Positions 2,752 to 24,635 of a stretch of DNA of 55,309 nt are shown in pieces. Below the pieces are notes generated by a model that was given only the letters and a program-made list of their open reading frames with translations, searched no databases and had not been told where the DNA came from. The DNA is taken from positions 1 to 55,309 of the forward strand of contig JACPIQ010000081.1 in the NCBI GenBank assembly GCA_016188005.1, written 5' to 3'. Every line of letters begins with the position of its first letter. Positions within the stretch are counted from its first letter, which is position 1. The stretch comes from Candidatus Rokuibacteriota bacterium. Lineage in GTDB: Bacteria > Methylomirabilota > Methylomirabilia > Rokubacteriales > CSP1-6. The position numbers and the translations under genes were made by a program.

Positions 2752-3525
2752 ATGGACATCGTCGTGACGGTCAAGATGGTCCCCGACCTGGTGGAGGAGC
2801 TCGAGGTCAATGCCGAGGGCACCGACCTCGACCGCTCGGCGGTCCGGCTGCGCCTCAACGAGTTCGACGAGCACGCGCTGGAGCAGGCGCTCGTGCTGAA
2901 GGACAGGTACGGCGCCCGGGTGACGGTCGTCGCGCTCGACTCCGGCGACGTGGACGAGCCCCTGTTCACCTGTCTCGCCAAGGGCGCCGACCGGGCCGTG
3001 AAGGTGACGGGCGACTTCCAGGACGGGCTCTCGACCCACGGCGCCGCGGCGGTGCTGGCCCAGGTGCTGGGCGGCATCCCGCACGACCTCGTCCTGGCGG
3101 GGGTCCAGGCGCCCGACGACCGGGACGGGCAGCTCGGCGTGCTCCTGGCCGCGGCCCTCCGGCTGCCCCATGTCAGCGTCGTCACCGCGGTGGAGCCCGC
3201 GGGGGACAGGGCCGTGACGGTGCGGCAGGAGTACGCGGGCGGGGTCGTGGGCGAGCTGGAGGTGGATCTCCCGGCCGTTCTCGGCGTCCAGGCGGCGCCC
3301 CAGGCGCCGCGCTACGCGCCGGTGTCCAAGGTGCGGCAGCTGATGAAGACGGCCACGCTCGAGACCGTCGCGGCCCCGGCCGTGGAGGCCGGCGCCGGCT
3401 CCACCGTGACGCGCCTGGCCCGGCCCGAAGCGACGGGGCGCGCCGAGATCCTCGAGGGTGCGCCCGACGAAGTGGCCGACCGCCTCTACACGATCCTCGC
3501 CGACCGCGGTCTCCTCAAGCAGTGA
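2752..3525 (+). CDS. etfB: Electron transfer flavoprotein beta subunit
   Basis: This 257-residue protein has the EtfB fold signature: MDIVVTVKMVPDL at the N terminus, the LNEFDEHALEQAL segment near residues 38-51 and DDRDGQLGV near 122. EtfB and EtfA form a soluble FAD/AMP heterodimer that carries electrons from dehydrogenases to a membrane quinone reductase. The gene is directly followed by etfA and then an Emo-type oxidoreductase, so donor, carrier and quinone exit are encoded together. No fatty-acid acyl-CoA dehydrogenase is nearby. The HdrCB-like and lipoate-binding neighbours suggest that the electron source is sulfur oxidation. The length is normal for the family. Confidence 0.9.
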   Translation: MDIVVTVKMVPDLVEELEVNAEGTDLDRSAVRLRLNEFDEHALEQALVLKDRYGARVTVVALDSGDVDEPLFTCLAKGADRAVKVTGDFQDGLSTHGAAAVLAQVLGGIPHDLVLAGVQAPDDRDGQLGVLLAAALRLPHVSVVTAVEPAGDRAVTVRQEYAGGVVGELEVDLPAVLGVQAAPQAPRYAPVSKVRQLMKTATLETVAAPAVEAGAGSTVTRLARPEATGRAEILEGAPDEVADRLYTILADRGLLKQ

Positions 3526-3551
3526 TGGGACTCAACGACAGGAGACGATCC

Positions 3552-4523
3552 GTGAGCAGCGATGTCGCGGTGATCATCGAGCACCTGGAAGGTGTCCTCG
3601 CCGAGGTGTCGTTCGAGATGCTCGCCAAGGGCCGGGAGCTGGCGGCGGCCGGCGGCGGCCAGCTCTGGGGCGTCCTCATCGGCCACGGCGTCACGCGGCT
3701 GGCCGGCGAGCTGGGGGCCGCCGACGGCGTGGCCGTGGTGGAGGACGAGAGGCTGGCCCATTACACCCCCGAGGCCTACGAGCGGGCCGCGGCCGCGGCG
3801 CTTCAGGCGCTCGGCCCCCGTGTGGCGCTGGTGGCCTCCTCCTCCATGGGGCTCGACCTGGCCGCGGGGCTGTCGGGGACGCTCGGCTGGCCGCTGTGCG
3901 GCTACTGCAAGGACGTCGCGCTCACGGGCGGCACGCTCAGTGCCGTGAGCCAGATCTACGGCGGCAAGCTCATGGCGACGGCGGAGGTGCCCGGGGAGCA
4001 TGCCGTCTGCGCCATGCTCCCCGGGGCCGCGGCGGCCGCGGCCGGGCGCAGGCGCGGGACAGCGACGCTGCGGGAGATCCCGGCGCCGGCGCTCGACAGT
4101 CTGCGCATGCGCTTCAAGCGGCTCATCCAGCCGGAGGCCGGGGACGTGGACATCACCCGCGAGAGCATCCTCGTCAGCGTCGGCCGCGGCATCGGCTCCC
4201 AGGACAACCTCGCCGTGGTGGAGGAGCTGGCCCAGGCCCTCGGCGGCGCCGTTTCCTCGTCGCGTCCAATCGTGGATCAGGGGTGGCTGCCCAAGAGCCG
4301 TCAGGTCGGCAAGTCCGGGCTCTCGGTGAAGCCCAAGCTCTACCTGGCCGTGGGGATCAGCGGGGCGCCGGAGCACATCGAGGGCATGCGAGGCGCGGAG
4401 CTGATCGTCGCCATCAACACGGATCCGAGCGCGCCGATCTTCGACGTGGCGCATTACGGGATCGTCTCCGACCTGTTCGACGTCCTCCCGGCGCTTACTG
4501 AGAAGGTCAAGACCTCGGCGTGA
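3552..4523 (+). CDS. etfA: Electron transfer flavoprotein alpha subunit
   Basis: EtfA is the FAD-binding partner of EtfB. The C-terminal domain has the FAD-site motifs VSVGRGIGSQDN, SSSRPIVDQGWLP, KSRQVGKSGLSVKPKLYLAVG (described in parts) and INTDPSAPIFDVAHYGIV, all in normal order and spacing. The N-terminal alpha/beta domain is standard. I chose the GTG at 3552 because AGGAGA at 3540-3545 sits six bases upstream. An ATG at 3525 overlapping the etfB stop would add nine residues and is the alternative. The stop overlaps the GTG of the next gene (GTGA at 4520-4523), so translation of etfA and the emo-like gene is probably coupled. Confidence 0.92.
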   Translation: MSSDVAVIIEHLEGVLAEVSFEMLAKGRELAAAGGGQLWGVLIGHGVTRLAGELGAADGVAVVEDERLAHYTPEAYERAAAAALQALGPRVALVASSSMGLDLAAGLSGTLGWPLCGYCKDVALTGGTLSAVSQIYGGKLMATAEVPGEHAVCAMLPGAAAAAAGRRRGTATLREIPAPALDSLRMRFKRLIQPEAGDVDITRESILVSVGRGIGSQDNLAVVEELAQALGGAVSSSRPIVDQGWLPKSRQVGKSGLSVKPKLYLAVGISGAPEHIEGMRGAELIVAINTDPSAPIFDVAHYGIVSDLFDVLPALTEKVKTSA

Positions 4524-6613
4524 GCGACCCGGCCCTTCCGGCACGGGAGGTCTTCCGGAACTTCTCGGGCGTCCTGATCGCCCTCTTCTATCTCGCCGCC
4601 GTCCTGAGCATGGCGGTTGCCGGCTGGGGGGTGTGGCTGCGCCTCCGGCGGTACCTCCGCGGCCGCCCCGTCTCGCGGTGGGACGCCCTCGGCCAGCGGT
4701 TCCTGGGCGCGGCTCTGGCGGTGGGCGCCCATACCACGCTCGCCAGGCGCCACGCCGCAGTGGGGCTCGCCCACGCGGGGATCTTCTGGGGCTTCGCCGC
4801 GCTCTTCGTGGGCACCCTCATCATCATGGTCGACTACGACATGGTGCGGCTCGTGAACCCCGCGTGGCGCTTCTGGAAGGGGTCCTTCTACCTCTGGTAC
4901 TCGCTGCTGCTGGACATCCTCGGCGCGGCCTTCGTCGTGGGGCTCGCCGTCATGATGGCGCGCCGCTGGCTGGCCCGGCCTGCAGCGCTGGACTACGTCC
5001 GCCCCGACCGCGCGCCCGCCGCCTACAACCGGGCCGGGTACCTCGCCGACGACCGGCTCTTCCTCTGGCTGCTGTTCGGGATCGGCGTGACGGGGTACGC
5101 GGTGGAGGCGCTGCGCATCGCCGCCGACCGGCCGCCCTTCGAGCGCTGGTCCGTGGTGGGCTGGCAGCTCGCCAACGTCGTCGATGCCGCGGGCCTCGGG
5201 CCGGGCGCCAGCGCGCTCCATCCGTGGGGCTGGTGGTGCCACGGCGTCCTGGCGCTGGGCTTCATCGCTTATCTGCCGTACTCCAAGGCCGTGCACATGC
5301 TGGTAGACGGCGTGAACCTGCTCTTCCGCGACCCCCTGGCTGCCAAGCGGCTGCCCCCTGCGCCCGAGGCGAGCCCCGGCTACCAGAGCCTCACGGACTT
5401 CACCTGGAAGGAGTTGCTCGACCTCGACGCGTGCACCAGGTGCGGCCGCTGCCACGAGGCCTGCCCCGCCCGCGCGGCGGGAGCCCCGCTGAGCCCGCGC
5501 GACCTCATCCTCGAGCTGCGAGAGCACGCCGAGTCGACGCTTGGCGGCCGCTCCTGGTTCCGCGAGGTGCAGGCGCGCCCGGCCGACGGTGCCCTGGTGG
5601 GGGTGGTGATCCGCCCGGAGACCCTCTGGGCCTGCACCACCTGCCGGGCCTGCGTCGAGGCCTGTCCGGTCGGCATCGAGCATCTGCCGCTCATCGTCCA
5701 GCTGCGCCGCTCGCTGGTCGCCGAGGGCACCCTCGACGCCAATCTCCAGTCAGTGCTGGAGAAGATCCAGCGCTACGGCAACTCCTTCGGCCAGTCCGAG
5801 CGCAGCCGCCCGAGGTGGACGCAGGGGCTCGACTTCAAGCTCAAGGACGCGCGCAAGGAGCCGGTGGAGTGGCTCTGGTTCGTGGGCGACTACGCCTCGT
5901 ACGATCCGGGGCTCCAGGGGCTCACGCGCGGGGTGGCGCGGGTCTTCCACCGGGCGGGGCTGGATGTGGGCATTCTCTACGAAGGAGAGCGCAACGCGGG
6001 CAACGACGTCCGCCGCGTGGGCGAGGAGGGGCTCTTCCAGCTCCTCGCCGAGAAGAACGCCGCCGTGCTCGCCAAGGCGCGGTTCCAGGCCATCGTCACG
6101 ACCGACCCCCACTCCTACAACACGCTCAGGTTCGAGTACCCGGAGCTGGGGGCGGCGTACCCCGTCCGGCACTACACGGAAGTGCTGAGCGATCTCCTCC
6201 GCGCGGGGCTCCTGCCCCTGGCGCGCCAGCTCGAAGGGGTGGTCACCTACCACGATCCGTGCTATCTCTCCCGCTACGCGGAGGTGACCGACGCGCCGCG
6301 CCAGATCCTGGCGACGCTCGGGCTCACGCTGGTGGAGATGCCACGGAGCCGGGCCGCGAGCTTCTGCTGCGGGGCGGGGGGAGGACGCATCTGGATGAGC
6401 GACACGCGCAGGCCCGGGGTGCCGACGCCGGCCGAGCAGCGGATCGCCGAAGCCCTGGAGATCCCCGGGGTGCGGTACTTTGTCGTCGCCTGCCCCAAGG
6501 ACGTGACCATGTTCCGGGACGCGGTCAAGACCGGGGGCTTCGAGGGGCGCATCGAGGTGAAGGAGATCGTGGAGCTGCTCGAGGAGGCCCACCCCGCACC
6601 TGCGGAGGCGTAG
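4520..6613 (+). CDS. Membrane HdrD-like ETF:(mena)quinone oxidoreductase (Emo type)
   Basis: This 697-residue fusion has about five NarI-like transmembrane helices in its first 260 residues, expected to carry heme b and reduce quinone. A cytoplasmic HdrC-like ferredoxin part follows (CTRCGRCHEACP near residue 305, CTTCRACVEACP near 372). Last comes an HdrB-like CCG part (HDPCYLSR near 580, SFCCGAGGG near 615, ACPKD near 657). As in its paralogue at 68-1360, the first CCG half lacks cysteines. This layout matches the Emo proteins that accept electrons from EtfAB and pass them to menaquinone, and the gene overlaps etfA by four bases. It is probably the membrane exit for electrons from the Etf-linked sulfur oxidation module. 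Confidence 0.83.
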   Translation: MSDPALPAREVFRNFSGVLIALFYLAAVLSMAVAGWGVWLRLRRYLRGRPVSRWDALGQRFLGAALAVGAHTTLARRHAAVGLAHAGIFWGFAALFVGTLIIMVDYDMVRLVNPAWRFWKGSFYLWYSLLLDILGAAFVVGLAVMMARRWLARPAALDYVRPDRAPAAYNRAGYLADDRLFLWLLFGIGVTGYAVEALRIAADRPPFERWSVVGWQLANVVDAAGLGPGASALHPWGWWCHGVLALGFIAYLPYSKAVHMLVDGVNLLFRDPLAAKRLPPAPEASPGYQSLTDFTWKELLDLDACTRCGRCHEACPARAAGAPLSPRDLILELREHAESTLGGRSWFREVQARPADGALVGVVIRPETLWACTTCRACVEACPVGIEHLPLIVQLRRSLVAEGTLDANLQSVLEKIQRYGNSFGQSERSRPRWTQGLDFKLKDARKEPVEWLWFVGDYASYDPGLQGLTRGVARVFHRAGLDVGILYEGERNAGNDVRRVGEEGLFQLLAEKNAAVLAKARFQAIVTTDPHSYNTLRFEYPELGAAYPVRHYTEVLSDLLRAGLLPLARQLEGVVTYHDPCYLSRYAEVTDAPRQILATLGLTLVEMPRSRAASFCCGAGGGRIWMSDTRRPGVPTPAEQRIAEALEIPGVRYFVVACPKDVTMFRDAVKTGGFEGRIEVKEIVELLEEAHPAPAEA

Positions 6614-6621
6614 AGGCGAGC

Positions 6622-7071
6622 ATGGCGACCCTGTTCAACTGCAACCTGCCGGAAGAGCTCTTCTACCTCATCGACAAGCACGTGTGGCTGCGGGTTTCCG
6701 TGGACGGGCCCGTCACGGTGGGCATCGACGACGTGGCCCAGAACCTGGCCGGGACCATCGTCGCCTGCACGCCGAAGAAGGCGGGGCGCGCGGTGCCCAG
6801 AGGGCAGAGCCTGGCGACCATCGAGTCCTCCAAGTGGGTGGGACCGGTGCCGAACCCCGTGACGGGGGAGATCGTGGAGGTCAACGAGGCCGTGCGGAAG
6901 AGTCCGGGGATCCTCAATCAGGATCCGTACGGGCAGGGGTGGCTGGTGCGGGTCAGGCCGACGAACTGGGAGGCGGAGAGAGCGGAGCTCGCGACCGGTG
7001 CCGAGGGGCTGGAGGCGTACCGCAGCTTCCTCGAGGCCCAGGGGATCCAGTGCCGGCCGGCCGGCGGCTGA
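6622..7071 (+). CDS. lbpA: Lipoate-binding protein, GcvH-like (LbpA), copy 1
   Basis: This 149-residue protein has the GcvH fold with the lipoyl-lysine motif TIESSKW, the attachment site being K71, followed by PVTGEIVEVNEAV and DPYGQGWLVRV. In LbpA proteins of sHdr-containing sulfur oxidisers, lipoate carries sulfur intermediates rather than taking part in glycine cleavage. The tryptophan after the lysine and the CNLPEELFY N terminus fit LbpA better than housekeeping GcvH. No gcvT or gcvP is nearby, while Hdr-like, Etf, LipS and lipoate ligase genes are. It starts eight bases after the emo-like gene. Confidence 0.87.
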   Translation: MATLFNCNLPEELFYLIDKHVWLRVSVDGPVTVGIDDVAQNLAGTIVACTPKKAGRAVPRGQSLATIESSKWVGPVPNPVTGEIVEVNEAVRKSPGILNQDPYGQGWLVRVRPTNWEAERAELATGAEGLEAYRSFLEAQGIQCRPAGG

Positions 7072-7135
7072 GGGCAGGCGGCCGGAAGCGCGGTGGCGGC
7101 CACGTGAACACGCGACCACGAGGGAGGAACGAGCG

Positions 7136-8416
7136 ATGACTCAGTTCACCCGCAGGGGGTTTCTCAGGACCGGCGCGGCCGGCGCCGGAGTCGGTGTGCT
7201 GGGCGTGACCCTGGGCGGCGGGCTCGCCGGATGCGCCGCGCCCGTCACGGGCGACATCGCCCCCGGTACGCGCCGCCGCGTGGTCGTGATCGGCGGCGGC
7301 TGGGGCGGCGCGACGGCGGCGAAGTACGTCCGCATGGGCGATCCCAGCATCGAGGTCGTCCTCCTCGAGCCCAACCGCGAGTTCGTCTCCTGCCCGTTCA
7401 GCAACCTGGTCCTGAGCGGCCTCCGCAAGATCGACAGCATCACCTTCGGCTACGAGGGCCTCAGGCGCCACGGCGTCAGGATCCTGCACGAGGCGGCCAC
7501 GGCCATCGAGCCCGACCGCCGGCGCGTCCGTCTCGCCGACGGGTACCTCCAGTACGACCGCCTCATCGTCTCGCCGGGCGTCGAGTTCCAGTGGGAGCAG
7601 GTCGAGGGGCTCGCGGCCAACCAGGACAAGGTGCTGCACGCCTGGAAGGCGGGGCCGCAGACCGTCGCGCTCGCCCGGCAGCTCGAGTCCATGCGGGACG
7701 GCGGGGTCTTCGTGCTGACGGTGCCGCCCATCGCCTACCGCTGCCCCCCGGGCCCCTACGAGCGGGCCTGCATGGTGGCCTGGTACCTCAAGACCCACAA
7801 GCCCAAGAGCAAGCTCATCGTGCTCGACGCCAACCAGAACATCGTGTCCAAGACGGGCCTGTTCCGGGCGGCGTGGAAGGCCTACCCGAACCTCGAGTAT
7901 CACGCCTCGAGCAAGGTGATCGCCGTGGACCCGGGCGCGCGCGAGGTCCGCACCGAGTTCGACCGGATCAAGTACGACGTGGTGAACCTCATCCCACCAC
8001 AGCGCGCCGGGACCATCGCCGTCCAGGCCGATCTCGTGGGCGCCGACAAGCGGTGGTGCGAGGTGAGCCACACCACGTACGAGTCGGTGAAGCACAAGAA
8101 CGTCCACGTCCTCGGAGATTCCACCATCGGGCTGCCGGTGCCGAAGTCGGGCAACGTCGCCAACGCCATGGGGAAGGTCTGTGCCATCGCGGTCGTGGCG
8201 CTCCTGAACGACAAGCCCGTGCCGTCCCTGGCGCCGGGCAACACCTGCTACAGCTGGGTGAGCGACCGGGAGGCCATCGCCGTGGTCAACGCCTACAAGA
8301 TCGAGAACGGCAAGGTCGTCCAGATCGAGCAGAAGCTCACGCCGGCCCAGAGCCCCTTCGTCGCGCAGCGGGCCGAGGGGTGGGCGAAGGGCATCTGGCA
8401 CGACGTGCTCGCGTGA
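7136..8416 (+). CDS. fccB: Flavocytochrome c sulfide dehydrogenase, flavoprotein subunit
   Basis: This 426-residue periplasmic FAD protein oxidises sulfide to sulfane sulfur and passes electrons to the adjacent cytochrome. The N terminus is a Tat signal (TRRGFLRTG followed by a hydrophobic stretch), ending near a GCAAP segment that could also be a lipobox. A Rossmann FAD motif follows (VVVIGGGWGGATAAKYV). Redox cysteines are seen in FVSCPFSNLVLSG and in the PPQRAGTI region, and the C-terminal FCSD domain includes NTCYSWVSDREAI. I chose the ATG at 7136, which has GAGGGAGG upstream. It is followed by the c-type cytochrome gene at 8471, the usual Fcc arrangement. Confidence 0.87.
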   Translation: MTQFTRRGFLRTGAAGAGVGVLGVTLGGGLAGCAAPVTGDIAPGTRRRVVVIGGGWGGATAAKYVRMGDPSIEVVLLEPNREFVSCPFSNLVLSGLRKIDSITFGYEGLRRHGVRILHEAATAIEPDRRRVRLADGYLQYDRLIVSPGVEFQWEQVEGLAANQDKVLHAWKAGPQTVALARQLESMRDGGVFVLTVPPIAYRCPPGPYERACMVAWYLKTHKPKSKLIVLDANQNIVSKTGLFRAAWKAYPNLEYHASSKVIAVDPGAREVRTEFDRIKYDVVNLIPPQRAGTIAVQADLVGADKRWCEVSHTTYESVKHKNVHVLGDSTIGLPVPKSGNVANAMGKVCAIAVVALLNDKPVPSLAPGNTCYSWVSDREAIAVVNAYKIENGKVVQIEQKLTPAQSPFVAQRAEGWAKGIWHDVLA

Positions 8417-8470
8417 GGGGGGGCGATGACCATGGCCACCACGACCAGCGTCGAGTTCGGAGGATCCTCC

Positions 8471-9076
8471 ATGCACACGATGGCACGCGGGCTCCTGGCC
8501 GGAGCGGCTCTCCTCGCCGTCCTGGCCGTCTCCGACGGGTGGGCGGCCGGGCCCTTCGAGACGCCCGGCTTCACCAAGGTCTTCACCTGCGCGGTCTGTC
8601 ACGGGCCCGCGGGCAACAGCGAGTCCGACAGCATGCCGATCATCGCGGGGATGGCACCGGCGTACTTCAAGAAGCAGATGCAGGCGTATGCGGGAGGCCA
8701 GCGGCCGTCGGCCGAGATGGAGCCCTACGCAAAGATGGTGATGCATCTGGGCGTCGATGACGTCGCGGCTTACTTCGCGGCGCAGAAGATGCGGCCCGCC
8801 AGGGTACCGGTCGATCCCGCCGCCGTCGAGCGCGGCCGCAGGGCGTCGGAGGCGTGCGTCGTCTGCCACGGACGGGAGGGCAAGGCCGATGTCGACAAGG
8901 GCATCCCGGCCCTGGCGGGGCAGCCTGCCGGGTACCTGCGAGAGCAGCTGACGCTGTTCAAGGCCGAAAAGAGGAACCCCAAGGATGCCCTGATCAAGTC
9001 CACGAAGGCGATGCTGGGGACCATCCCGGAGGCGACCCTGGCCGACCTGGCCGCGTACTACTCGAGCCGGAGGTAG
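8471..9076 (+). CDS. fccA: Di-heme cytochrome c (c4 type), sulfide dehydrogenase cytochrome subunit
   Basis: This 201-residue secreted protein has a signal peptide ending at GWAAG near residue 26. It carries two CxxCH heme sites, CAVCHG and CVVCHG, in two similar c4-like halves. It probably takes electrons from the FccB flavoprotein encoded just before it and hands them to a terminal oxidase. I chose the ATG at 8471 because GGAGG lies just upstream and the signal peptide then begins properly; an in-frame ATG at 8426 would add 15 residues. The di-heme state agrees with classical FccA of purple sulfur bacteria, but assignment as FccA rests on gene order. Confidence 0.82.
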   Translation: MHTMARGLLAGAALLAVLAVSDGWAAGPFETPGFTKVFTCAVCHGPAGNSESDSMPIIAGMAPAYFKKQMQAYAGGQRPSAEMEPYAKMVMHLGVDDVAAYFAAQKMRPARVPVDPAAVERGRRASEACVVCHGREGKADVDKGIPALAGQPAGYLREQLTLFKAEKRNPKDALIKSTKAMLGTIPEATLADLAAYYSSRR

Positions 9077-9105
9077 CCGGGCCCGGCCTTCCGGGCGGTC
9101 ACGCC

Positions 9106-9558
9106 ATGGCGCTGTATCGTGGCTGCGACCTCCCCGAGGATCTGTGGTACGACGTCGACCGCGACGTCTGGGCGCGATTCGAGGCGGACGACACGGTCAC
9201 GCTCGGCATGACGGACCCGGCGCAGACGCGCTGCGGCCGAGTGGTGAGCGTGCGCTTCAAGGCGGTGGGGCGCCACGTGCCGCGCGGGCAGAGCCTCGGG
9301 ACCATCGAGAGCGCGAAGTGGGTCGGGCCGTTTCCCGCCGTGCTGTCGGGGGTGATCGTCGCGAACAACGAGGCGGCGTTCCGGCAGGACATCCTCGCCG
9401 CCAACAAGGATCCCTACGGCGAAGGCTGGCTGGTGCGGCTCAGGCCCGAGCGGCTCCCGGAAGAGCGCGGGGCGCTGGTCACCGGGGCCGACGCGCTCGC
9501 CCGCTACCGCGCGCGCATCGACGCCCACGCCATCAACTGCATGCGCTGTGCAGGGTGA
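9106..9558 (+). CDS. lbpA: Lipoate-binding protein, GcvH-like (LbpA), copy 2
   Basis: This 150-residue paralogue of the 6622 gene has the same CDLPEDLWY start and the lipoyl motif TIESAKW with K71 as attachment residue, then DPYGEGWLVRL. It ends in a cysteine pair, INCMRCAG; copy 1 has only the single cysteine of GIQCRPAGG there. The usual PxxGxIxxVN loop after the lysine is altered (VLSGVIVANNEA), so it is more diverged than copy 1. It follows the sulfide dehydrogenase pair, suggesting a lipoate carrier linked to sulfane sulfur from sulfide oxidation. That link is inference from position. Confidence 0.82.
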   Translation: MALYRGCDLPEDLWYDVDRDVWARFEADDTVTLGMTDPAQTRCGRVVSVRFKAVGRHVPRGQSLGTIESAKWVGPFPAVLSGVIVANNEAAFRQDILAANKDPYGEGWLVRLRPERLPEERGALVTGADALARYRARIDAHAINCMRCAG

Positions 9559-9677
9559 GGCGCAGCCGAAGGCGAGCCGAACGAAACATGGAGGTGGGTC
9601 CGAGCGGAGCGAGGCGGGTGAGGCGCAGGGTTGGCGAGCCGCAGCCGAAGGCGAGGCGAGCGCATCCGGAAGAAGAC
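9559..9677 (+). repeat. Stop-anchored intergenic repeat (GCCGAAGGCGAGCCGAA family)
   Basis: Directly after the stop codon of the preceding gene (9556-9558) lie two imperfect copies of a GCAGCCGAAGGCGAG repeat. One runs from about 9559 and one from about 9638. Between them sits GAGCGGAGCGAGGCGGGTGAG. The block ends at the ATG of the third lbpA-like gene. Related blocks occur at 11064-11255 and 48617-48683. Confidence 0.7.
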
Positions 9678-10169
9678 ATGGAGATGGATGCAGAGCGGAG
9701 CGAGGCGGATGAGCAGGTGAGGCGCATCGAGGGACACGACTTCCCCGAGGGGCTCTGGTACCAGGCGGCGGAGCACCTCTGGCTGCGGCCCGGAGAGCCG
9801 GACGGGAGCGGGCGGCGGCTGGTGACGGTGGGCCTCGACGCCCTCGGCGTGCTGGCGCTCGGCGAGGTGGTCTATGCGGAGCTCGGCGAGCGCGGCCTCG
9901 ACGTCCGGGCGGGACAGGCGCTGGGCTCGCTCGAGGCCGAGAAGATGGTGCGTCCCGTGCTGGCGCCGGTGTCGGGCACCGTGGTGGAGGTCAACGACGA
10001 GCTCCAGGCGGCCCCGCGACGGCTGAACACCGATCCCTACGGCGGCGGCTGGCTGGTCCGGATCGCGGCCGGCGCCTGGGATCTGGAGGCGACGGAGTTC
10101 CTCCGGGCGCCGGGCGACGTGGAGGCGTGGGTGCGGCAGGAGCTCTCCGAGCACGAGGACAGGCGGTGA
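9678..10169 (+). CDS. Lipoate-binding protein, GcvH-like, copy 3
   Basis: This 163-residue third lipoyl-domain protein has the lysine motif SLEAEKM (K89) and PVSGTVVEVNDEL, closer to conventional GcvH than copies 1 and 2, with DPYGGGWLVRI downstream. The first about 18 residues are charged and derive partly from the repeat block upstream, so the true start could be slightly later, before GHDFPEGLWY. The stop overlaps the GTG of the radical SAM gene (GTGA at 10166-10169). It may be another LbpA or a true GcvH; the lack of other glycine cleavage genes favours LbpA. Confidence 0.78.
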   Translation: MEMDAERSEADEQVRRIEGHDFPEGLWYQAAEHLWLRPGEPDGSGRRLVTVGLDALGVLALGEVVYAELGERGLDVRAGQALGSLEAEKMVRPVLAPVSGTVVEVNDELQAAPRRLNTDPYGGGWLVRIAAGAWDLEATEFLRAPGDVEAWVRQELSEHEDRR

Positions 10170-11065
10170 CCGTCGCGCTCCGCGAGATCCACTTCTATGC
10201 CCCGGGGCTCAGGCGCTACCGGACCTCGGAGTGGACCGGGCAGGAGCCGGGGCGCTTCGTGTCCGTGTCCGTGACGGGTGCCGCGTGTGCGCTGCAATGC
10301 GATCACTGCCAGTCGAAGGTGCTCGAGGGGATGTGGTCGCTCGGGGGCGCGACGCTCTACGATGTCGCGCTGGAGGCCCGGGAGCGGGGGGCGCGCGGGA
10401 TCCTGGTCTCCGGCGGCTCCGACCGGCGCGGGCGCGTCCCGTTGCTCCGGCACGTGCCGGACCTCAAGCGGATCCGGCAAGAGCTGGGCCTGCTGGTCCG
10501 CCTGCATCCCGGCTTGCCTGACGAGGAGACGGCGGCGGCGCTCGGCGAGGTGGGTGTGGATGGTGCCATGCTCGACATCATCGGCGCCCAGGAGACCATC
10601 CGGGAGATCTACCACCTCGACGTCCCCGTCGGGGAGTACGCGGCCGTGCTCGAGCGGCTGGACGCCCACGGGGTCCCGCTGGTGCCCCACATCATCCTGG
10701 GGCTCCACCGCGGCCGCATGCTGGGGGAGTGGACGGCGCTCTCCATGGTGGCGCGCCATCGCCCCCGGCTGCTGGTCCTCGTGGTGCTGATGCCGATGAC
10801 AGGCACGGCCATGCGGGACGTGACGCCGCCGTCAGTGGCCGAGGTCGGCGCCTTCTTCCAGACGGCGCGCGCCGCCATGCGGGAGACGCCCATCGCCCTC
10901 GGCTGCGCTCGCCCCCTGGGCCCGGTCAAGGCCGAGATCGACCGGTGCGCCGTGGAGGCGGGGCTCGACGGTATCGCCTATCCGGCCGAGGGCATCGTGG
11001 CCTATGCGCGGTCCCGCGGCCTGACGCCCCGCTTTCACGACGCCTGCTGCGGTATTGATTGGTGA
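10166..11065 (+). CDS. lipS2: Radical SAM protein, LipS2-like lipoyl synthase component
   Basis: This 299-residue radical SAM enzyme has the SAM-cluster motif CALQCDHCQ near residue 46, then the GILVSGGSDRRGRVPL segment typical of the biotin-synthase-like family COG1856. In archaea and many sulfur oxidisers, two such proteins, LipS1 and LipS2, together insert both sulfurs into octanoyl-lysine in place of LipA. The other component is the next gene and a lipoate ligase follows, so a local lipoyl assembly line for the LbpA proteins is encoded here. Assignment to LipS2 rather than LipS1 is from my memory of the family and is less certain than the pair itself. Confidence 0.75.
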   Translation: MTVALREIHFYAPGLRRYRTSEWTGQEPGRFVSVSVTGAACALQCDHCQSKVLEGMWSLGGATLYDVALEARERGARGILVSGGSDRRGRVPLLRHVPDLKRIRQELGLLVRLHPGLPDEETAAALGEVGVDGAMLDIIGAQETIREIYHLDVPVGEYAAVLERLDAHGVPLVPHIILGLHRGRMLGEWTALSMVARHRPRLLVLVVLMPMTGTAMRDVTPPSVAEVGAFFQTARAAMRETPIALGCARPLGPVKAEIDRCAVEAGLDGIAYPAEGIVAYARSRGLTPRFHDACCGIDW

Positions 11066-11255
11066 GCCGAAGCCGAAGGCGAGGCGAACGGATATGGAGG
11101 AGCAGTGGCGAGCGTCAGCGAGCCGGGGGAGCCGAAGCCGAAGGCGAGGCGAATGAAATATGGAGAATCCCCGAGCGTCAGCGAGCCGGGGGAGCCGAGG
11201 CCGAAGGCGAGGCGAACGGATATGGAAGAGCGGTGGCGAGCGTCAGCGAGCCGGG
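11064..11255 (+). repeat. Three tandem copies of the stop-anchored GCCGAAGGCGAGGCGAA repeat
   Basis: Units of about 63-65 bases start at 11064, 11129 and 11192. Each reads GAGCCGAAGCCGAAGGCGAG, then GCGAAC or GCGAAT, a short ATATGGA stretch and GCGTCAGCGAGCCGGG. The first begins inside the stop codon of the radical SAM gene (11063-11065), and the last ends seven bases before the next ATG. One frame stays open through the block, so automatic start calling could wrongly extend the next gene to 11059. Confidence 0.85.
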
Positions 11256-11262
11256 TGACGAC

Positions 11263-12366
11263 ATGACCACGGAAACCGTCGGCGGAAAGAAGACGAAGCT
11301 CGCGCTGCTGGAGCACGCGGAGCGGACGCTGCCGAGCCCCGACCACGTGCGGATCAGCGTGGCGGCCGCCATGTCCATCGGGCTCCGGCCGGGCCTCTTC
11401 TTCCGCAACGCCAGCTGCGACTGCGTGAACCTGCTGCTCAACTACCCCGAGGGCTGTTACGCCAACTGCACCTACTGCGGGCTGGCCCGGGAGCGCCCGG
11501 GACTCGCCCAGGATAACACCTTCATCCGCGTGGGCTGGCCTGTCTACCCCACCGAGCGCGTGGTGCAGGCCATCGCCGAGAGCGAGGCGCGGGTGGGGCG
11601 GGTCTGCATCGCCCAGGTGCAGGACCGGCGTGCCTACCCGGATCTCCTCGACATCGCGGGCCGCCTCAGGCGCCGGTCGTCGGTGCCCATCTCGGCCCTC
11701 GTCTCGGCCACGCTGCTCGACGAGGAGAAGCTCCTCGCGATCCGGGAGGCGGGGGTGGACATCGTCGGCGTGGGACTGGATGCCGCCAGCGAGGAGGTCT
11801 TCCATCGCACGCGGGGCCGGGGCGCGCGCGGGCCCCACTCGTGGGCGCAGCACTGGGAGATCATCCGGCTGGCTCGCAAGCACTTCGGCCCGATGAAGGT
11901 GAACTGTCACGTCATCGTGGGGCTCGGCGAGACGGACGCGGAGCTGATCGACCTCTTCTATCGGGTGCGAGCCGAGGAGATCGCCGCGTATCTGTTCTCC
12001 TTCAACCCCGAGCCTGGAACCGACATGGCCGGGGCGCCGCGCGCCCCCATCGCGCGGCTCCGGCGCATCCAGCTCACCAAGCACCTGATCGAGGAGCGCG
12101 GGTTGCCGCGCGAGGCCATCGAGTGTGACGAGGCGGGCGCGCTCCTCCGCGTGCATGCGCCGCGAGCGCTCATCGAGGAATGCATCGCCGCCGGGACGCC
12201 GTTCATGACCGATGGCTGCCCCGACCGCACCGGCAGGATGGCCTGCAACCGGCCCTTCGGCAGCTACCGCCCGGGCGAGGAGTTCCGCGACTACCCGTTC
12301 CGGCCTACCGAGGACGACATCGCCGTGATCCGCGCCGAGGCCGCCTTCGACGAGGTCACCGGGTGA
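11263..12366 (+). CDS. lipS1: Radical SAM protein, LipS1-like lipoyl synthase component
   Basis: This 367-residue biotin-synthase-like radical SAM protein has the cluster motif CYANCTYCGLA near residue 65 and the preceding NLLLNYPEG segment. A barrel follows, including VGLDAASEEVFHRTRG and NCHVIVGLGETD. C-terminal cysteines in TDGCPDRTGRMACNRPFG may bind an auxiliary cluster, the sulfur donor in lipoyl synthases. It belongs with the LipS2-like gene upstream. The start at 11263 skips the repeat block; longer in-frame starts would translate repeat sequence. The stop overlaps the GTG of the ligase gene at 12363. Confidence 0.77.
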   Translation: MTTETVGGKKTKLALLEHAERTLPSPDHVRISVAAAMSIGLRPGLFFRNASCDCVNLLLNYPEGCYANCTYCGLARERPGLAQDNTFIRVGWPVYPTERVVQAIAESEARVGRVCIAQVQDRRAYPDLLDIAGRLRRRSSVPISALVSATLLDEEKLLAIREAGVDIVGVGLDAASEEVFHRTRGRGARGPHSWAQHWEIIRLARKHFGPMKVNCHVIVGLGETDAELIDLFYRVRAEEIAAYLFSFNPEPGTDMAGAPRAPIARLRRIQLTKHLIEERGLPREAIECDEAGALLRVHAPRALIEECIAAGTPFMTDGCPDRTGRMACNRPFGSYRPGEEFRDYPFRPTEDDIAVIRAEAAFDEVTG

Positions 12367-13316
12367 CCGACCATCCCGTTCGCCTCCTCGACCTCGGCGA
12401 GGTCTCCCCGCTCCGCTCGCAGGCCCTCTACCACGGCCTGGGCGAGAGCATGAATGAGCAGTCGCCGGACACCATCGTGCTCTGCCATCCCGCCGCGCCG
12501 TACTTCTCGGTGGGCCATCACCACGCTCCGGCCGACGAGCTCGACCTCGAGTGGTGTCGCGCCAGCGGCTACCCCGTCCTCCGGCGGCGCATCGGCGGCG
12601 GCACGGTCTTCCTCGATCGGAGCCAGCTCTTCTACCAGTGCATCTTCCACCGCAGGGGCGCGCCGCTGATGGTGGAGGGGATTTACCGCCGCTTCCTGAT
12701 GCCGGCGGTCGAGGCGCTGCGTGGGCTCGGGCTCCCCGCGAGCCTCGAGGGCATCAACGAGATCGAGGTGGCGGGTCGGAGGATGGCGGGCACGGGCGGC
12801 GGGCAGATCGGCGAGGCGGTGGTCGTGGTCGGCAACGTGCTCTTCGACTTTCCCGCCTCCGTGATGGGGCGCGCGTGGCGTGCCCCCTCCCCCCAGTTCC
12901 GGCGGCTCGCCGAGGAGGGGCTGCGGCTCCACGTCGGGACGTTGGGCGCGGCGCTGCCGTCTCCGCCGGCCCAGGCCGGGATGCGGGAGCGGCTCGTCGC
13001 CTCCTACGAGACGGGCCTCGGCCGCCCCCTCGTCCGGGGCCGGCTGACGCCGGCGGAGACGGCCGCGGTGAGGGCCGAGGAGGAACGCCTCGCCCGGCCT
13101 CCCGAGCGCTCCCGCGCGCCGGGGCGGCCGCTCACCCGGGTCAAGGTCACGCGCCGCGTCTCGGTCCACGAGTGGACGTGGCGCGCGGGCGAAGGAGAGA
13201 CCCGGGTCACCGCCCGCGTGGCCGATCGCCACATCGAGGAGCTCGTGGTCGCCGGGGCGCCGCTGGCGCCCGACGACGCCCGCCGGCGCGTGCTCGAGGC
13301 GCTGAGTGCGGGATGA
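12363..13316 (+). CDS. Lipoate/octanoate protein ligase family protein
   Basis: This 317-residue protein has the biotin/lipoate ligase catalytic domain: SVGHHH near residue 47, RRRIGGGTVFLD near 75 and the lysine-less NEIEVAGRRMAGTGGGQI near 135, where LplA normally has a catalytic lysine (here RRM). A C-terminal extension, about residues 240-317, resembles an accessory domain. The altered RRM position could mean an octanoyltransferase-like or specialised role. It is coupled to lipS1 by a four-base overlap, so it probably loads octanoate or lipoate on the LbpA proteins. A second ligase is encoded at 26348-27454. Confidence 0.72.
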   Translation: MTDHPVRLLDLGEVSPLRSQALYHGLGESMNEQSPDTIVLCHPAAPYFSVGHHHAPADELDLEWCRASGYPVLRRRIGGGTVFLDRSQLFYQCIFHRRGAPLMVEGIYRRFLMPAVEALRGLGLPASLEGINEIEVAGRRMAGTGGGQIGEAVVVVGNVLFDFPASVMGRAWRAPSPQFRRLAEEGLRLHVGTLGAALPSPPAQAGMRERLVASYETGLGRPLVRGRLTPAETAAVRAEEERLARPPERSRAPGRPLTRVKVTRRVSVHEWTWRAGEGETRVTARVADRHIEELVVAGAPLAPDDARRRVLEALSAG

Positions 13317-13350
13317 GGGACCACCTGGAGGCAAGCCATGTTGCGGACCG

Positions 13351-14130
13351 ATGGACCTGCTGATCGCGGTGCCGCTCGGCTTCGTCCTGGGTTTCCTGAT
13401 CGGTCTGACCGGCGTCGGCGGAGGCGCCCTGGTCGCGCCCGCCCTGTACGTGGTGCTGGGGCTCCCTTACGGAGAGGCCGTGGCCCTGTCGCTGATCTAC
13501 TCCCTCTTCACGAAGGTCGTGAGCGGTGTCCAGCACATGCGCCAGGGAACGGTTCTGTGGAAGGTGACCCTGCTGTACGGGCTCCTGGGAATCCCGGGAG
13601 CCATCCTGGGATCGCGGCTGGTCTACCTGGCCGACGCGGGGCTGCAGCGCCTCTTCCCCCTGATCATGGGGGGCGTCCTGCTCGTGGTCTCCGCGCTCAT
13701 GCTGATGGAGACGGGCATGCGCTCCCTGGCGGCCCGCCCGAAGCCCTTCTCCCCCCACGAGGTCGGCTGGCAGGGCGTCGCGGGCATCGCCGCGCTCCAG
13801 CTCTTCGTGGGCGTCCTCCTGGGGATCACCTCCGTCGGCGCGGGCAGCATCATCATCCTCTCCATGGTCTTCCTCTTCCGGATGACCGCCCGCGAGATCG
13901 TCGGCTCCAACATCATCATTGCGCTCATCATGGTCGTCCCCGCGGGATTCGCCCACTACCTTGCCGGCGGGGTGGACTGGCGGCTCCTGGGCCTGCTGCT
14001 GCTGGGCTCCTTCGGGGGGGCGGTGCTGGGATCCAAGTCCACGATGTTGCTGCCGGACCGGTTACTGAAGCTCGCCATGGTCACCCTCATCGTCGGAGGA
14101 GCCCTCTCGACCATCGCCAAGGCGTGGTGA
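13351..14130 (+). CDS. TauE/SafE family membrane permease
   Basis: This 259-residue protein has about eight transmembrane helices in two inverted halves. Family glycine motifs are LIGLTGVGGGALVAPAL near residue 15 and GITSVGAGSIIIL near 160. The TauE/SafE family exports or imports sulfur oxyanions and organosulfur acids, and members often sit in sulfur oxidation clusters. Here it lies between the lipoate genes and a LysR regulator. Sulfite or sulfonate export is plausible but not shown by sequence. A weak GGAGG lies upstream near 13326; the ATG at 13351 gives the proper start of the first helix. Confidence 0.82.
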   Translation: MDLLIAVPLGFVLGFLIGLTGVGGGALVAPALYVVLGLPYGEAVALSLIYSLFTKVVSGVQHMRQGTVLWKVTLLYGLLGIPGAILGSRLVYLADAGLQRLFPLIMGGVLLVVSALMLMETGMRSLAARPKPFSPHEVGWQGVAGIAALQLFVGVLLGITSVGAGSIIILSMVFLFRMTAREIVGSNIIIALIMVVPAGFAHYLAGGVDWRLLGLLLLGSFGGAVLGSKSTMLLPDRLLKLAMVTLIVGGALSTIAKAW

Positions 14131-14270
14131 GGTGAGGCATCTGGAGGGCAGCGTCTACCCTACTTGACCTGGTGCGCGGTGCGTCATGGGCAGATACTTA
14201 TGGACTTTGGCCAGATTATTTATTTGCCCTGGCCCCCGGCTACTGACATCCTTCTGCAGGTCACCGACCA
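14131..14270 (+). promoter_or_regulatory. AT-rich regulatory stretch before the LysR gene
   Basis: This 140-base gap contains the least GC-rich bases of the area (about 14191-14226, with ATACTTATGG and GATTATTTATTTG), against a background above 65% GC. LysR regulators commonly bind such stretches next to their own gene. A TTGACC lies at 14164-14169, but no well-spaced -10 box is visible, so I do not call a promoter. Confidence 0.35.
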
Positions 14271-15272
14271 ATGAACCTGCACCACCTCCGGATCTTCTAC
14301 ACCGTCGCGCAGCGCAGGAGCATCACGGCGGCGGCCGAGGACCTTCTCCTCAGCCAGCCTGCGGTGAGTCTGCAGCTCAAGGCCCTCGAGAAGGAGCTGG
14401 GCATGCCGCTCTTCCAGCGCGGCGGCTCGAAGCTGGCGCTCACCCAGGCCGGCGAGGTGCTCTATCGCTCCGCCGTGTCCATCCTCCACGCCAAGGAGGA
14501 GGTCGAGCGCTCCATCGGCGAGCTGCGCGACGGGACCAAGGGCCGGCTGATCCTCGGCGCGGGGACGACGGGGGGGATGTACGTGCTCCCGAGAATCGTC
14601 CAGGCCTACAAGGGGCTCTGGCCGGAGACCGAGATCGTCTTCCACATCGGGAACACCGACCACATTCTCGAGAAGCTCCTGGAGAACGTCGTGGACATGG
14701 GGCTCGTCGGCGGGCCCATCGACGACCGGCGCTTCGTCGTCGAGCCTGTCTGCCCCGACGAGCTGGTTCTCATTGCGGCGCCGACGCACCCCATCGTGTC
14801 GCTTGGCAAGGTGACCCTCAAGGACCTGGCAGGGCTGCCGTTCATCGTGCCCGAAGCGGGGTCCCGGACCCGCCAGCTCGTCGAGCGCAACTTCCGGGAC
14901 GCGGGGGTGCCCTTCAAGATCGCCATGCAGCTGTCGGGCACCGAAGGCGTCAAGCGGGGGGTCGAGGCGCGTCTCGGTGTGGGCATGGTCTCGCGCTACG
15001 CGGTCGAGTCCGAGTGCCAGCACGGTGTGCTCCAGCGCGTGCCCATCGAGGGGTGGGGGATCACGCGCACCATGAACCTCGTCTACCGGAACCAGAAGTA
15101 CTTCTCCCCGGTGGGGGAGCGCTTCCGCGACTTCGCGAAGTCCTACGGGGAGCGTCATCTCGGTCAGCCCGTGGCCTCGACACCGCGCGGCGAGGTCGGG
15201 GGCCCGCGCGGTCCGGGAGGCGCGCGCCGCGCCGGCGGACGGGCCAGAGGGGTCCGCAGCGATCGGGAGTGA
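14271..15272 (+). CDS. LysR family transcriptional regulator (CysB/CbbR-like)
   Basis: This 333-residue protein has an N-terminal winged helix-turn-helix (HHLRIFYTVAQRRSITAAAE, then LSQPAVSLQLKALEKELG, residues 1-60). A two-lobe periplasmic-binding-protein-like effector domain follows to about residue 295. The last about 40 residues are Arg/Gly/Pro rich and probably disordered. It sits between a TauE/SafE permease and a YeiH-type permease in the same direction, so control of sulfur anion transport or of the downstream sat-apr-qmo genes is a reasonable guess. The inducer is unknown. Confidence 0.85.
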   Translation: MNLHHLRIFYTVAQRRSITAAAEDLLLSQPAVSLQLKALEKELGMPLFQRGGSKLALTQAGEVLYRSAVSILHAKEEVERSIGELRDGTKGRLILGAGTTGGMYVLPRIVQAYKGLWPETEIVFHIGNTDHILEKLLENVVDMGLVGGPIDDRRFVVEPVCPDELVLIAAPTHPIVSLGKVTLKDLAGLPFIVPEAGSRTRQLVERNFRDAGVPFKIAMQLSGTEGVKRGVEARLGVGMVSRYAVESECQHGVLQRVPIEGWGITRTMNLVYRNQKYFSPVGERFRDFAKSYGERHLGQPVASTPRGEVGGPRGPGGARRAGGRARGVRSDRE

Positions 15273-16964: not shown

Positions 16965-17132
16965 GAGGGCGCCACAGCAGCTTTCGAGAGCCGTCGCCCC
17001 GCGCGCGACCCGCCCGGCACCGGAAGAGTGCGAGCGATGACCGATCGCCTGGCGCTCTCGGCGCCGGTGCAGGTGCGCGCGGCGGCGGCGGAGGTGTTCG
17101 CGCTGGTGAGCGATCTGAACGAGGGAGCGAGC

Positions 17133-18350
17133 ATGAGCCTGGTGAACCCACACGGCAGGGACAAGCGCCTGAAGCCGCTGCTGCTCGGCGGCCAGGAGTG
17201 CGAGGAGGCGACGCGCAGGGCCCGGGGCCTCCCGCGCCTGGCGATCAGCTCGCGCGAGACCTCCGACCTCATCATGCTGGGCATCGGCGCCTTCACGCCG
17301 CTCGAGGGCTTCATGGGGCGGGCGGACTGGCAGGGGGTCTGCGACGAGTACCGCCTGGCCGACGGGACCTTCTGGCCTGTCCCCATCACCCTCTCCACGA
17401 CGCGCGAGGAGGCCGGGCGGGTGCGGGACGGCCAGGACGTCGCCCTCGTGGACGGGGAGAGCGGCGAGCTGATGGGCACGCTGACCGTCCGCGAGCGGTA
17501 CGCCATCGACCGGGCCCACGAGTGCAAGCAGATCTTCCGGACCGACGATCCCGCCCACCCGGGTGTCGCCAACGTCATGGGACAGGGCGAGGTGAACCTG
17601 GCGGGCGAGGTCCGCGTGCTGAGCGAGGGGCGGTACCCCGCGCAGTACGCGGGGCTCTACATGCGACCCGAGGAGACGCGGAAGCGGTTCGCCGAGAAGG
17701 GGTGGAGCACGGTGGCGGCGCTCCAGCTCCGGAACCCCATGCACCGCTCCCACGAGTACCTGGCGAAGATCGCCGTGGAGATCTGCGACGGGGTGCTCAT
17801 CCAGCAGATCCTGGGCAAGCTGAAGCCCGGCGACATCCCGGCCGAGGTGCGCGTCCGCGCCGTGGACACGCTCGTCCGGCACTACTTCGTGAAGGACACC
17901 TGCATCCAGGCCGGCGTGCCGCTGGAGATGCGCTACGGCGGGCCCCGCGAGGCGCTGCTCCACGCCGTCTTCCGCCAGAACTTCGGCTGCAGCCATCTCC
18001 TCGTCGGCCGGGACCACGCGGGCGTCGGCGAGTACTACGGGCCCTTCGACGCGCAGAAGATCTTCGACGAGATCCCGAAGGGCTCGCTCGAGCTCAAGCC
18101 GCTCAAGATCGACATGACCTTCTACTGCAGGAGGTGCGACGGCATGGCGACGGGGCGGACGTGCCCGCACGGCAAGGAGGACCGGCTGGCGGTGAGCGGC
18201 ACGATGCTGCGGAAGACGCTGTCCGAGGGCGGCGAGGTGCCGGAGCACTTCAGCCGGCCCGAGGTGCTGGCCATCCTCAAGGACTACTACGCCACGCTCG
18301 AGGACAAGGTGGAGGTCAAGCTCCACAAGTACGCCAAGGGCGAGAAGTAG
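17133..18350 (+). CDS. sat: Sulfate adenylyltransferase (ATP sulfurylase)
   Basis: This 405-residue dissimilatory-type Sat interconverts APS plus pyrophosphate and ATP plus sulfate. In an oxidiser it runs towards ATP. Motifs: [13 protein letters not shown] near residue 200 (the nucleotide-binding QxRNPxHxxHE), [12 protein letters not shown] near 296 and a C-terminal cysteine group ([17 protein letters not shown] near 330), as in bacterial Sat proteins that bind zinc. I chose the ATG at 17133 because GAGGGAG lies nine bases upstream and MSLVNPHG is the usual N terminus. An in-frame ATG at 17037 would add 32 unrelated residues. It leads the sat-aprB-aprA-qmoABC order. Confidence 0.94.
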
Positions 18351-18377
18351 CGCCCCAACCAACCAGGAGGAGGAGTG

Positions 18378-18851
18378 ATGCCGACATTCGTGAACCCGGA
18401 CAAGTGCGACGGATGCCGCGGGCTGGCGCGCACGGCCTGCATGTACATCTGTCCCAACGACCTCATGAAGTACGACCCGGAGCTGGGGAAGGCCTACAGC
18501 AAGGAGCACGGGATGGCCTTCAACCAGGAGCCCGACGCCTGCTGGGAGTGCTTCTCGTGCGTGAAGGCCTGCCCGCAGGGCGCCATCACCATGCGCGGCT
18601 ACGCCGACGTGGTGCCGCTGGGCGGCTCGCTGGTCCCCCTGCGCGGGACGGACGCCATCATGTGGACGGCCAAGTACCGCGACGGCCAGATCAAGCGGTT
18701 CAAGTTCACGATCCGGACCACGGCGTGGGGCTCCATCGACCCGTTCAAGGACGCGCCCGCGCCGCCGGCCGACAAGATCAAGACACAGGAGCTGTACGCC
18801 GAGGGCAAGTGGCTCATGGTGGACAAGCTCCCCACCCCTACCAAGAACTGA
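18378..18851 (+). CDS. aprB: Adenylylsulfate reductase beta subunit
   Basis: This 157-residue ferredoxin-like subunit has two 4Fe-4S clusters, shown by CDGCRGLARTACMYICP near residue 9 and CWECFSCVKACPQGAI near 55. It transfers electrons between the AprA flavin and the Qmo membrane complex. The length is normal. A strong AGGAGGAGG precedes the ATG. It sits between sat and aprA, the common arrangement. Unlike its partner it is intact. Confidence 0.93.
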   Translation: MPTFVNPDKCDGCRGLARTACMYICPNDLMKYDPELGKAYSKEHGMAFNQEPDACWECFSCVKACPQGAITMRGYADVVPLGGSLVPLRGTDAIMWTAKYRDGQIKRFKFTIRTTAWGSIDPFKDAPAPPADKIKTQELYAEGKWLMVDKLPTPTKN

Positions 18852-18870
18852 CCAGCGAGGGCTCAGAGAG

Positions 18871-20666: not shown

Positions 20667-20693
20667 CCGCCTGAGGCGAGTTCGGGGTCGAGC

Positions 20694-20726
20694 GCGGCGG
20701 GGAACCCGAGCAGGGCTCCCCGCCGC
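20694..20726 (+). terminator. GC-rich hairpin between aprA and qmoA
   Basis: A perfect nine-pair stem, GCGGCGGGG (20694-20702) with CCCCGCCGC (20718-20726), encloses a smaller CCC/GGG hairpin (20705-20707 and 20713-20715). There is no U-tract, so it is more likely an RNA-processing or stabilising element, or a weak attenuator, than a strong terminator. The qmoA ATG follows 25 bases later. Confidence 0.5.
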
Positions 20727-20750
20727 CCGACGCAGAAAGGGTCTGTGCCC

Positions 20751-24208: not shown

Positions 24209-24211
24209 TGG

Positions 24212-24604
24212 CCTGTCCCAGCAGTTTGGCGACGAACTCCCGGGCGAGACTGGGGGCGCCCGCTCCCGAACACGCTCCCTCGCGGGCGCGCAGCGTCCAG
24301 TCGCAACGAGCCACGGGACGCAGGTTGCGGGCTTCGGCGACCCGCAGAAGCCACGGTTCGGGAGCGTGCGCCCCCAGCCCCGCCCTCACCCGTCTCAGCG
24401 ACTTCTGGGACAGGATACTGGCATCCTGCCTCAGGAGTTCATCGACAGGCGGCGCCCGGTGGGGCAGGGGGCCCTCCCCGCGGAACCGTGGCTTCTGCGC
24501 GCTGCCGGAGCCGAAGACCTCGATCTCGTGGCCCGGTACGGGACGGGGCTGCGGGTTGGGACTCAGCGTGTTCTGCGGGGAGGGCCCCCTGCCCCGGCCG
24601 GCGC
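24212..24604 (+). repeat. Nested palindromic element between qmoB and qmoC
   Basis: This gap holds two inverted-repeat units. Unit A has outer arms 24212-24221 and 24405-24414 (CCTGTCCCAG and its complement). Its 22-base inner arms, 24250-24271 and 24356-24377, have one mismatch. Unit B has perfect 21-base arms at 24461-24481 and 24575-24595. The units also cross-pair: 24343-24359 is the exact complement of 24483-24499 (17 bases). A small hairpin CAGGAT/ATCCTG lies between them at 24411-24428. It looks like a pair of MITE- or REP-like elements. No transposase is nearby. Confidence 0.8.
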
Positions 24605-24635
24605 TTTGCCGTCGGATCTCCGCGACAGGGCGCTA

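Follow-up and report, generated by a model that had tools for sequence, protein, structure and literature searches.

The 55,309-nucleotide stretch of Candidatus Rokuibacteriota DNA analysed here (the window), which opens contig C81 of a genome bin of 5.37 Mb and begins at a contig break, carries a type II sHdr-LbpA sulfur oxidation island, and we propose that the lipoyl proteins of this island form a two-tier set. LbpA-a and LbpA-b would be the working lipoyl proteins of sHdr, whereas a cysteine-free third protein, LbpA-c, would be an assembly carrier rather than a third catalytic LbpA, from which an altered lipoate ligase may pass finished lipoyl groups to the other two. We are nearly certain that the island is a type II sHdr system when the relay is left aside; for the whole statement, relay included, we put the probability at roughly 0.4. 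The biochemical steps, and the relay above all, we infer from the gene content, lineages, residues and co-occurrence patterns described below.

All genes of the block, from base 68 to tauE, lie on the + strand, and the first is shdrB3 (68–1360), a fused HdrC2-HdrB2 gene with HdrC and CCG matches and 80–94% identity to the gene 3′ of shdrH in relatives. The sHdr hdrC1B1A core, sought upstream of base 1 with the sHdrB1 of a relative as query, was found on an abutting contig of the same genome (C66), the end of which carries ArsR, DsrE, shdrC1, B1, A and H in the expected order and orientation; the absence of sHdr genes from the genome, a possibility raised with the original prediction, is thus excluded. 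The ends of C66 and of the window contig have the repeat CGTGAGGTT in common, and the break falls between shdrH (end of C66) and shdrB3 (start of the window), genes that belong to a contiguous C1-B1-A-H-B3-yeeE-etfBA series in Rokubacteria loci L070, L071 and L074. Taken together, the genes on C66 and in the window make up a type II sHdr system as defined in the literature (PMC11582611).

Downstream of shdrB3 lies a gene for a YeeE/YedE-family transporter (1570–2739), a candidate sulfur importer that matches NF033796 at 130.8 bits and TsuA models more weakly, all below their cut-offs; its position inside the type II shdr cluster is conserved across Rokubacteria (L050-L055, L070-L074 and L235). 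SoxT transporters have been found absent from type II genomes (PMC11582611). The genes for EtfB (2752–3525; NCBIfam Etf beta matches below cut-off), which conservedly adjoins shdrB3, and EtfA (3525–4523; an open frame) stand in the conserved order B3-EtfB-EtfA-EtfD, completed by a membrane-bound Fe-S protein with one CCG domain (4520–6613; PF02754 and Fer4 matches) that is an EtfD-like electron acceptor. The synteny of the block is kept in related genomes, and its composition is therefore not due to chance. The block ends with tauE (13306–14130), encoding a TauE/SafE-family sulfite exporter (PF01925, 132 bits), 3′ of which lie genes for a LysR regulator and a YeiH-like protein, sat, aprB, an aprA-like gene, qmo genes and a DUF202 gene, followed by an intact lipoate ligase gene (starting at 26348), soxYZ, soxXA and soxB. 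The Sat, AprB, AprA-like and Qmo genes (17028–25778, 3′ of the sHdr block) are likely the sulfite-to-sulfate branch of the same island. SoxXA is encoded as a fusion, by a single open frame (28568–29881) with above-cut-off matches to SoxX and SoxA alike.

The window also contains tandem arrays at 1345–1526 (64 bp, 2.8 copies) and 11064–11255 (63 bp, 3 copies), the first of which has relatives at about 50 other places in the genome. Similar repeat DNA at 9559–9720 adds to the 5′ side of the lbpA-c frame, which is open from 9678; the upstream in-frame ATG at that position falls in the repeat.

Between the first two lipoyl-protein genes lies fccBA. FccB (7136–8416), the flavoprotein of flavocytochrome c sulfide dehydrogenase, scores above the cut-offs for FCSD_central and FCSD-flav_bind (PF21706, 132 bits; PF09242, 44 bits) and begins with the twin-arginine signal MTQFTRRGFLRTG, and the FccA-like diheme cytochrome c (8471–9076; PF00034) starts with an export signal and contains two CxxCH motifs, which completes the features by which this enzyme was identified. 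The original prediction saw in this arrangement a direct link between sulfide oxidation and LbpA, and here it was not borne out. Given their export signals, FccA and FccB should be periplasmic, while LbpA is cytoplasmic; moreover, the relative G086 has lbpA-a followed directly by lbpA-c and no fccBA, and fccBA is also absent between a and b in other type II clusters. Although fccB or fccBA adjoins lbpA-a in six of the seven Rokubacteria compared, these observations make a mechanistic coupling of FccBA to LbpA, such as a direct hand-over of sulfur, scarcely credible. The link is a genomic and pathway one, in which periplasmic sulfide oxidation feeds the cytoplasmic sHdr system.

The products of lbpA-a (6622–7071), lbpA-b (9106–9558) and lbpA-c (9717–10169) match PF01597 (GCV_H) at 122.9, 95.2 and 83.3 bits, respectively (cut-off 22.2), all three retain the conserved lipoyl lysine, and their lipoyl motifs differ as originally read (ESSKW, ESAKW and EAEKM). 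LbpA-a falls just above the broad model NF002270 (119.4, cut-off 117), and none of the three passes TIGR00527. We placed them in a tree of 145 GcvH-like proteins from 80 named type II loci, related genomes and their own genome; the locus scan returned type II loci only, and the tree accordingly gives no assignment to LbpA1 or LbpA2. In this tree the three proteins represent three separate lineages, as had been suspected, and none falls within housekeeping GcvH, which forms its own clade (99/94). Housekeeping GcvH identity is ruled out by the tree together with gene context, the genome having a separate gcvT-gcvH-gcvP set (on C27, where gcvH is accompanied by gcvT and gcvPA). LbpA-a and LbpA-b belong to clades a and b of type II clusters, the two groups of the standard tandem pair that follows etfD in Chloroflexota, Actinomycetota, Bacillota and others, and both keep the N-terminal (Cys7) and C-terminal cysteines, the latter being a single residue in a and a CxxC in b. 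A further group, d, found between dsrE and shdrC1 in some phyla, is absent from this locus.

LbpA-c has neither the N-terminal nor the C-terminal cysteine. Its clade of 15 members (support 100/95) is split from a, b and d with support of 100/96, has the motif EAxK and an invariant lipoyl lysine (15/15), and has no conserved cysteine, for which reason we do not file LbpA-c as LbpA proper. The AlphaFold model has the H-protein fold (pLDDT 96) with K76 at the hairpin tip, and its best PDB match is the GcvH of M. tuberculosis. Genes of this clade adjoin lipS1 or lie a few genes from it in Rokubacteria, Actinomycetota, Armatimonadota, Calditrichota, Bacteroidota, Myxococcota and one member of the Chloroflexota (L080), another Chloroflexota copy (L095) being at a contig end; one Armatimonadota locus (L098) holds all four kinds, a, b, c and d. 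Between same-genus genomes dN/dS of LbpA-c is 0.51, a value based on few changes and weak either way. Among the Actinomycetota sampled, cysteine-free LbpA-c occurs in the four lipS1-bearing genomes with a close sHdrB1 (67–74% identity), and none was found in the other Actinomycetota checked.

In five Actinomycetota without sHdrB1 (L211, L213, L218, L220 and L221), lipS1 is adjoined by a related, cysteine-bearing lipoyl protein with the motif ESGKF, and the ligase is group A-like. We therefore rejected LbpA-c as a general partner of LipS1; within this sample, the strictly cysteine-free type seems to be restricted to genomes with sHdr. Sulfobacillus-type genomes have LipS1 and lack LbpA-c.

Three LbpA/GcvH-like genes, lipS1, lipS2 and a ligase do surround fccBA as the original prediction held, except that it had exchanged the two synthase genes. 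LipS1 (10166–11065) is a radical SAM protein that scores 230.8 bits against NF053742 (cut-off 230) and ends in HDACCGIDW, which includes the CC pair that T. kodakarensis LipS1 has at its C-terminus. The radical SAM protein encoded at 11263–12366 has NF053743 as by far its best model, yet at 196 bits it is below the cut-off of 270, and it is filed accordingly as LipS2-like. A lipT gene was not recognised among the genes examined. In 23 of 30 type II genomes sampled (among them L073, L075, L083, L108, L123 and L134) there was no LipS1 match, so that maturation of their LbpA proteins must take a different route.

Two ligase genes accompany this set. The second, two-domain ligase that had been noted at 26348–27454 was confirmed: it has the catalytic domain and, with Lip_prot_lig_C and LplB matches that stay below cut-offs, a weak C-terminal one. 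It belongs to group A, its clade adjoins lipS1 and lipS2 in other phyla, and in the relative G086 its gene follows those for LipS2 and the altered ligase, in that order. A same-genus genome keeps this intact ligase, 84% identical (G001:C22:5187-6287), and neither lipS1 nor LbpA was found in that genome. The first ligase (12363–13316) has the LplA-B_cat domain, and its loss of the usual catalytic lysine, reported previously, was upheld: it reads GRRMAG in place of GRKxxG. It groups with ligases that neighbour LbpA-c elsewhere, with moderate support (91/97), and carries D122E and K133R. We assume here the numbering of E. coli LplA for the motif N121-D122…K133 and take D122 to be important for ligase function. 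The importance given to the motif lysine follows the precedent of Mhp-LplJ, where K131 is a key residue (PMC7873978). Aligned to this motif, N-D-K is present in 14/14 group A ligases, the ligase at 26348 among them, and D and K are present in 28/28 of the other class B ligases (B1). In contrast, all 15 of the class B2 and Rokubacteria ligases beside LbpA-c have the D-to-E change, and the K-to-R change is found in the five Rokubacteria ligases among the LbpA-c neighbours (7/7 with two more genomes). With N-D-K and a C-terminal domain, albeit weak, the ligase at 26348 is an sLpl(AB) by sequence; the altered ligase is not, owing to D-to-E, K-to-R and a low C-terminal score.

A further pattern concerns that C-terminal domain, for which we built a profile on the class B ligases of LbpA-c-free genomes, scoring these leave-one-out and checking LbpA-c presence or absence over whole genomes. 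The domain scored 82–133 bits in 21/21 class B ligases from genomes without LbpA-c, including the most divergent of them (L139, branch 1.5; 82 bits), compared with ≤31 bits or no match in 20/22 from genomes with LbpA-c (17.8 bits in the altered ligase of the window). Fisher's test on this association gives 3e-10, a value that overstates the case because the genomes are related and not independent, and the correlation was found after the fact. The losses occupy three separate places in the ligase tree (Rokubacteria plus B2, Myxococcota and Saprospiraceae). The two exceptions, L102 and one of two ligases in L098 (the other copy being altered), combine LbpA-c with an intact C-terminal domain and count against a relay. 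The modelled fold of the altered ligase matches lipoate ligases and retains a small C-terminal beta domain. Its dN/dS of 0.36 between two species indicates purifying selection, and a pseudogene or decayed ligase is ruled out by this value and by the fact that all seven genomes keep E and R. Compared with the same-genus locus L054, dS is about 0.8 across the altered ligase and the LysR gene (12363–15272) and about 0.2 in their neighbours, a difference suggesting that one of the two genomes has had this block replaced.

From these observations we can outline how the island might operate. FccBA would oxidise sulfide outside the cytoplasm and sulfane sulfur would be imported, with YeeE as the candidate importer; sHdr (C1B1AH on C66, B3 in the window) would oxidise it to sulfite, served by LbpA-a and LbpA-b and with EtfBA/EtfD as the presumed electron outlet. 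For cofactor assembly, the intact ligase may load octanoate onto LbpA-c, where LipS2 and then LipS1 would add the sulfur atoms at C8 and C6. The altered ligase, presumably unable to activate free lipoate, would hand the completed lipoyl group over from LbpA-c to the two working proteins, LbpA-a and LbpA-b. The relay is suggested by the coincidence of a cysteine-less carrier adjoining the lipoyl synthases with one intact and one altered ligase, as in known relays, in which the H protein is the assembly carrier and an enzyme with a ligase scaffold and no ligase activity passes on the lipoyl group (PMC7253636). LIPT1 is thought to have become a relay enzyme by losing its C-terminal lipoate-activating function (PMC7253636). 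The main weakness is that LipL and LIPT1 use an acyl-enzyme, and we found no cysteine that sets the altered ligases apart: nearly all ligase groups conserve Cys65, and Rokubacteria lack the K-x-C-G cysteine seen in group B2. In H. denitrificans, one ligase and one LbpA suffice (PMC10332631), which we also count against a relay, and the intact ligase may load LbpA-a directly. The general form of the proposal, that type II sHdr oxidisers combine a cysteine-free LbpA-c bench with a half ligase, evolved repeatedly through loss of its activation part, in a GcvH-independent lipoyl relay, is somewhat more tentative than the two-tier reading of this island.

The original prediction took the pattern as a division of labour in sulfur transfer rather than redundancy. 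The three separate lineages agree with a division of labour, although the division they suggest is between catalysis (a and b) and assembly (c), not among sulfur-transfer partners. Were LbpA-c instead a third working LbpA, for sHdr or another sulfur step, with each ligase directly loading different clients, this could account for its co-occurrence with sHdr in the Actinomycetota sampled, for the three relatives that lack b and keep a and c (L050, L052 and G086), where c could replace b, and for the separate ligases beside b and beside c in L098. We nevertheless consider this somewhat less likely than an assembly role, since lbpA-c accompanies lipS1 and not hdr genes, its product lacks both conserved LbpA cysteines, and the D-to-E and C-terminal changes suggest a lost ATP-dependent activation rather than a new client.

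The altered ligase could also be an ordinary ligase still, and LbpA-c one more substrate of LipS1 and LipS2, with no relay: R133 and E122 are conservative substitutions, the fold is that of lipoate ligases and dN/dS shows that the gene is maintained. The presence of an intact second ligase in the same genomes, and the parallel loss in three LbpA-c lineages of a C-terminal signature needed for activation in other ligases, make this improbable. The absence of b from some relatives would suit a set of redundant paralogs, or an LbpA-c that is a relic kept by linkage, but the clade of each protein crosses phyla and the lipoyl lysine is invariant throughout the LbpA-c clade, so we give such redundancy very little credence.

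The presence of two or three LbpA proteins in some sulfur oxidisers has been stated to be unexplained (PMC6067878). What ties LbpA-c to cofactor assembly rather than catalysis is its clade, the position of its gene, the cysteines it lacks and the altered ligase that varies with it, and the question of multiple LbpA proteins thereby becomes a simple transfer assay. If the two-tier reading is true, a lipoyl relay with its own carrier evolved once more, by the route proposed for human LIPT1. A caution for annotation also follows, in that not every LplA-like gene is a ligase, and not every GcvH-like gene in a sulfur cluster is an LbpA.

Set against known systems, the cluster is of a known kind, a type II sHdr system with LipS1/S2 assembly. 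With type II sHdr-LbpA (shdrC1B1AHB3 and etfAB; PMC11582611) it shares all core genes, their order and the LbpA pair near etfD, and it differs in the extra fccBA, the YeeE/YedE-family gene inside the cluster and the cysteine-free lipoyl protein. LbpA-a and LbpA-b share the conserved lysine and two cysteines of LbpA1 and LbpA2 (PMC6067878), whereas LbpA-c lacks both cysteines. As in sLpl(AB)-LipS1/S2 assembly (PMC10332631), LipS1, LipS2 and a two-domain ligase lie in one sulfur oxidation island; here a second, altered ligase and a dedicated lipoyl protein adjoining lipS1 are added. LipM/GcvH/LipA/LipL of B. subtilis and LIPT2/GCSH/LIAS/LIPT1 of humans likewise combine an H-protein-fold carrier, a lipoyl synthase and a ligase scaffold without the normal activation part (PMC7253636); in the relay proposed here the carrier is not GcvH, the synthase is LipS1/S2 and the clients would be LbpA rather than E2. 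Our search of the literature available without subscription yielded no report of the LbpA-c lineage or of a relay to LbpA. What is new here is the cysteine-free third lineage and the altered ligase that co-varies with it.
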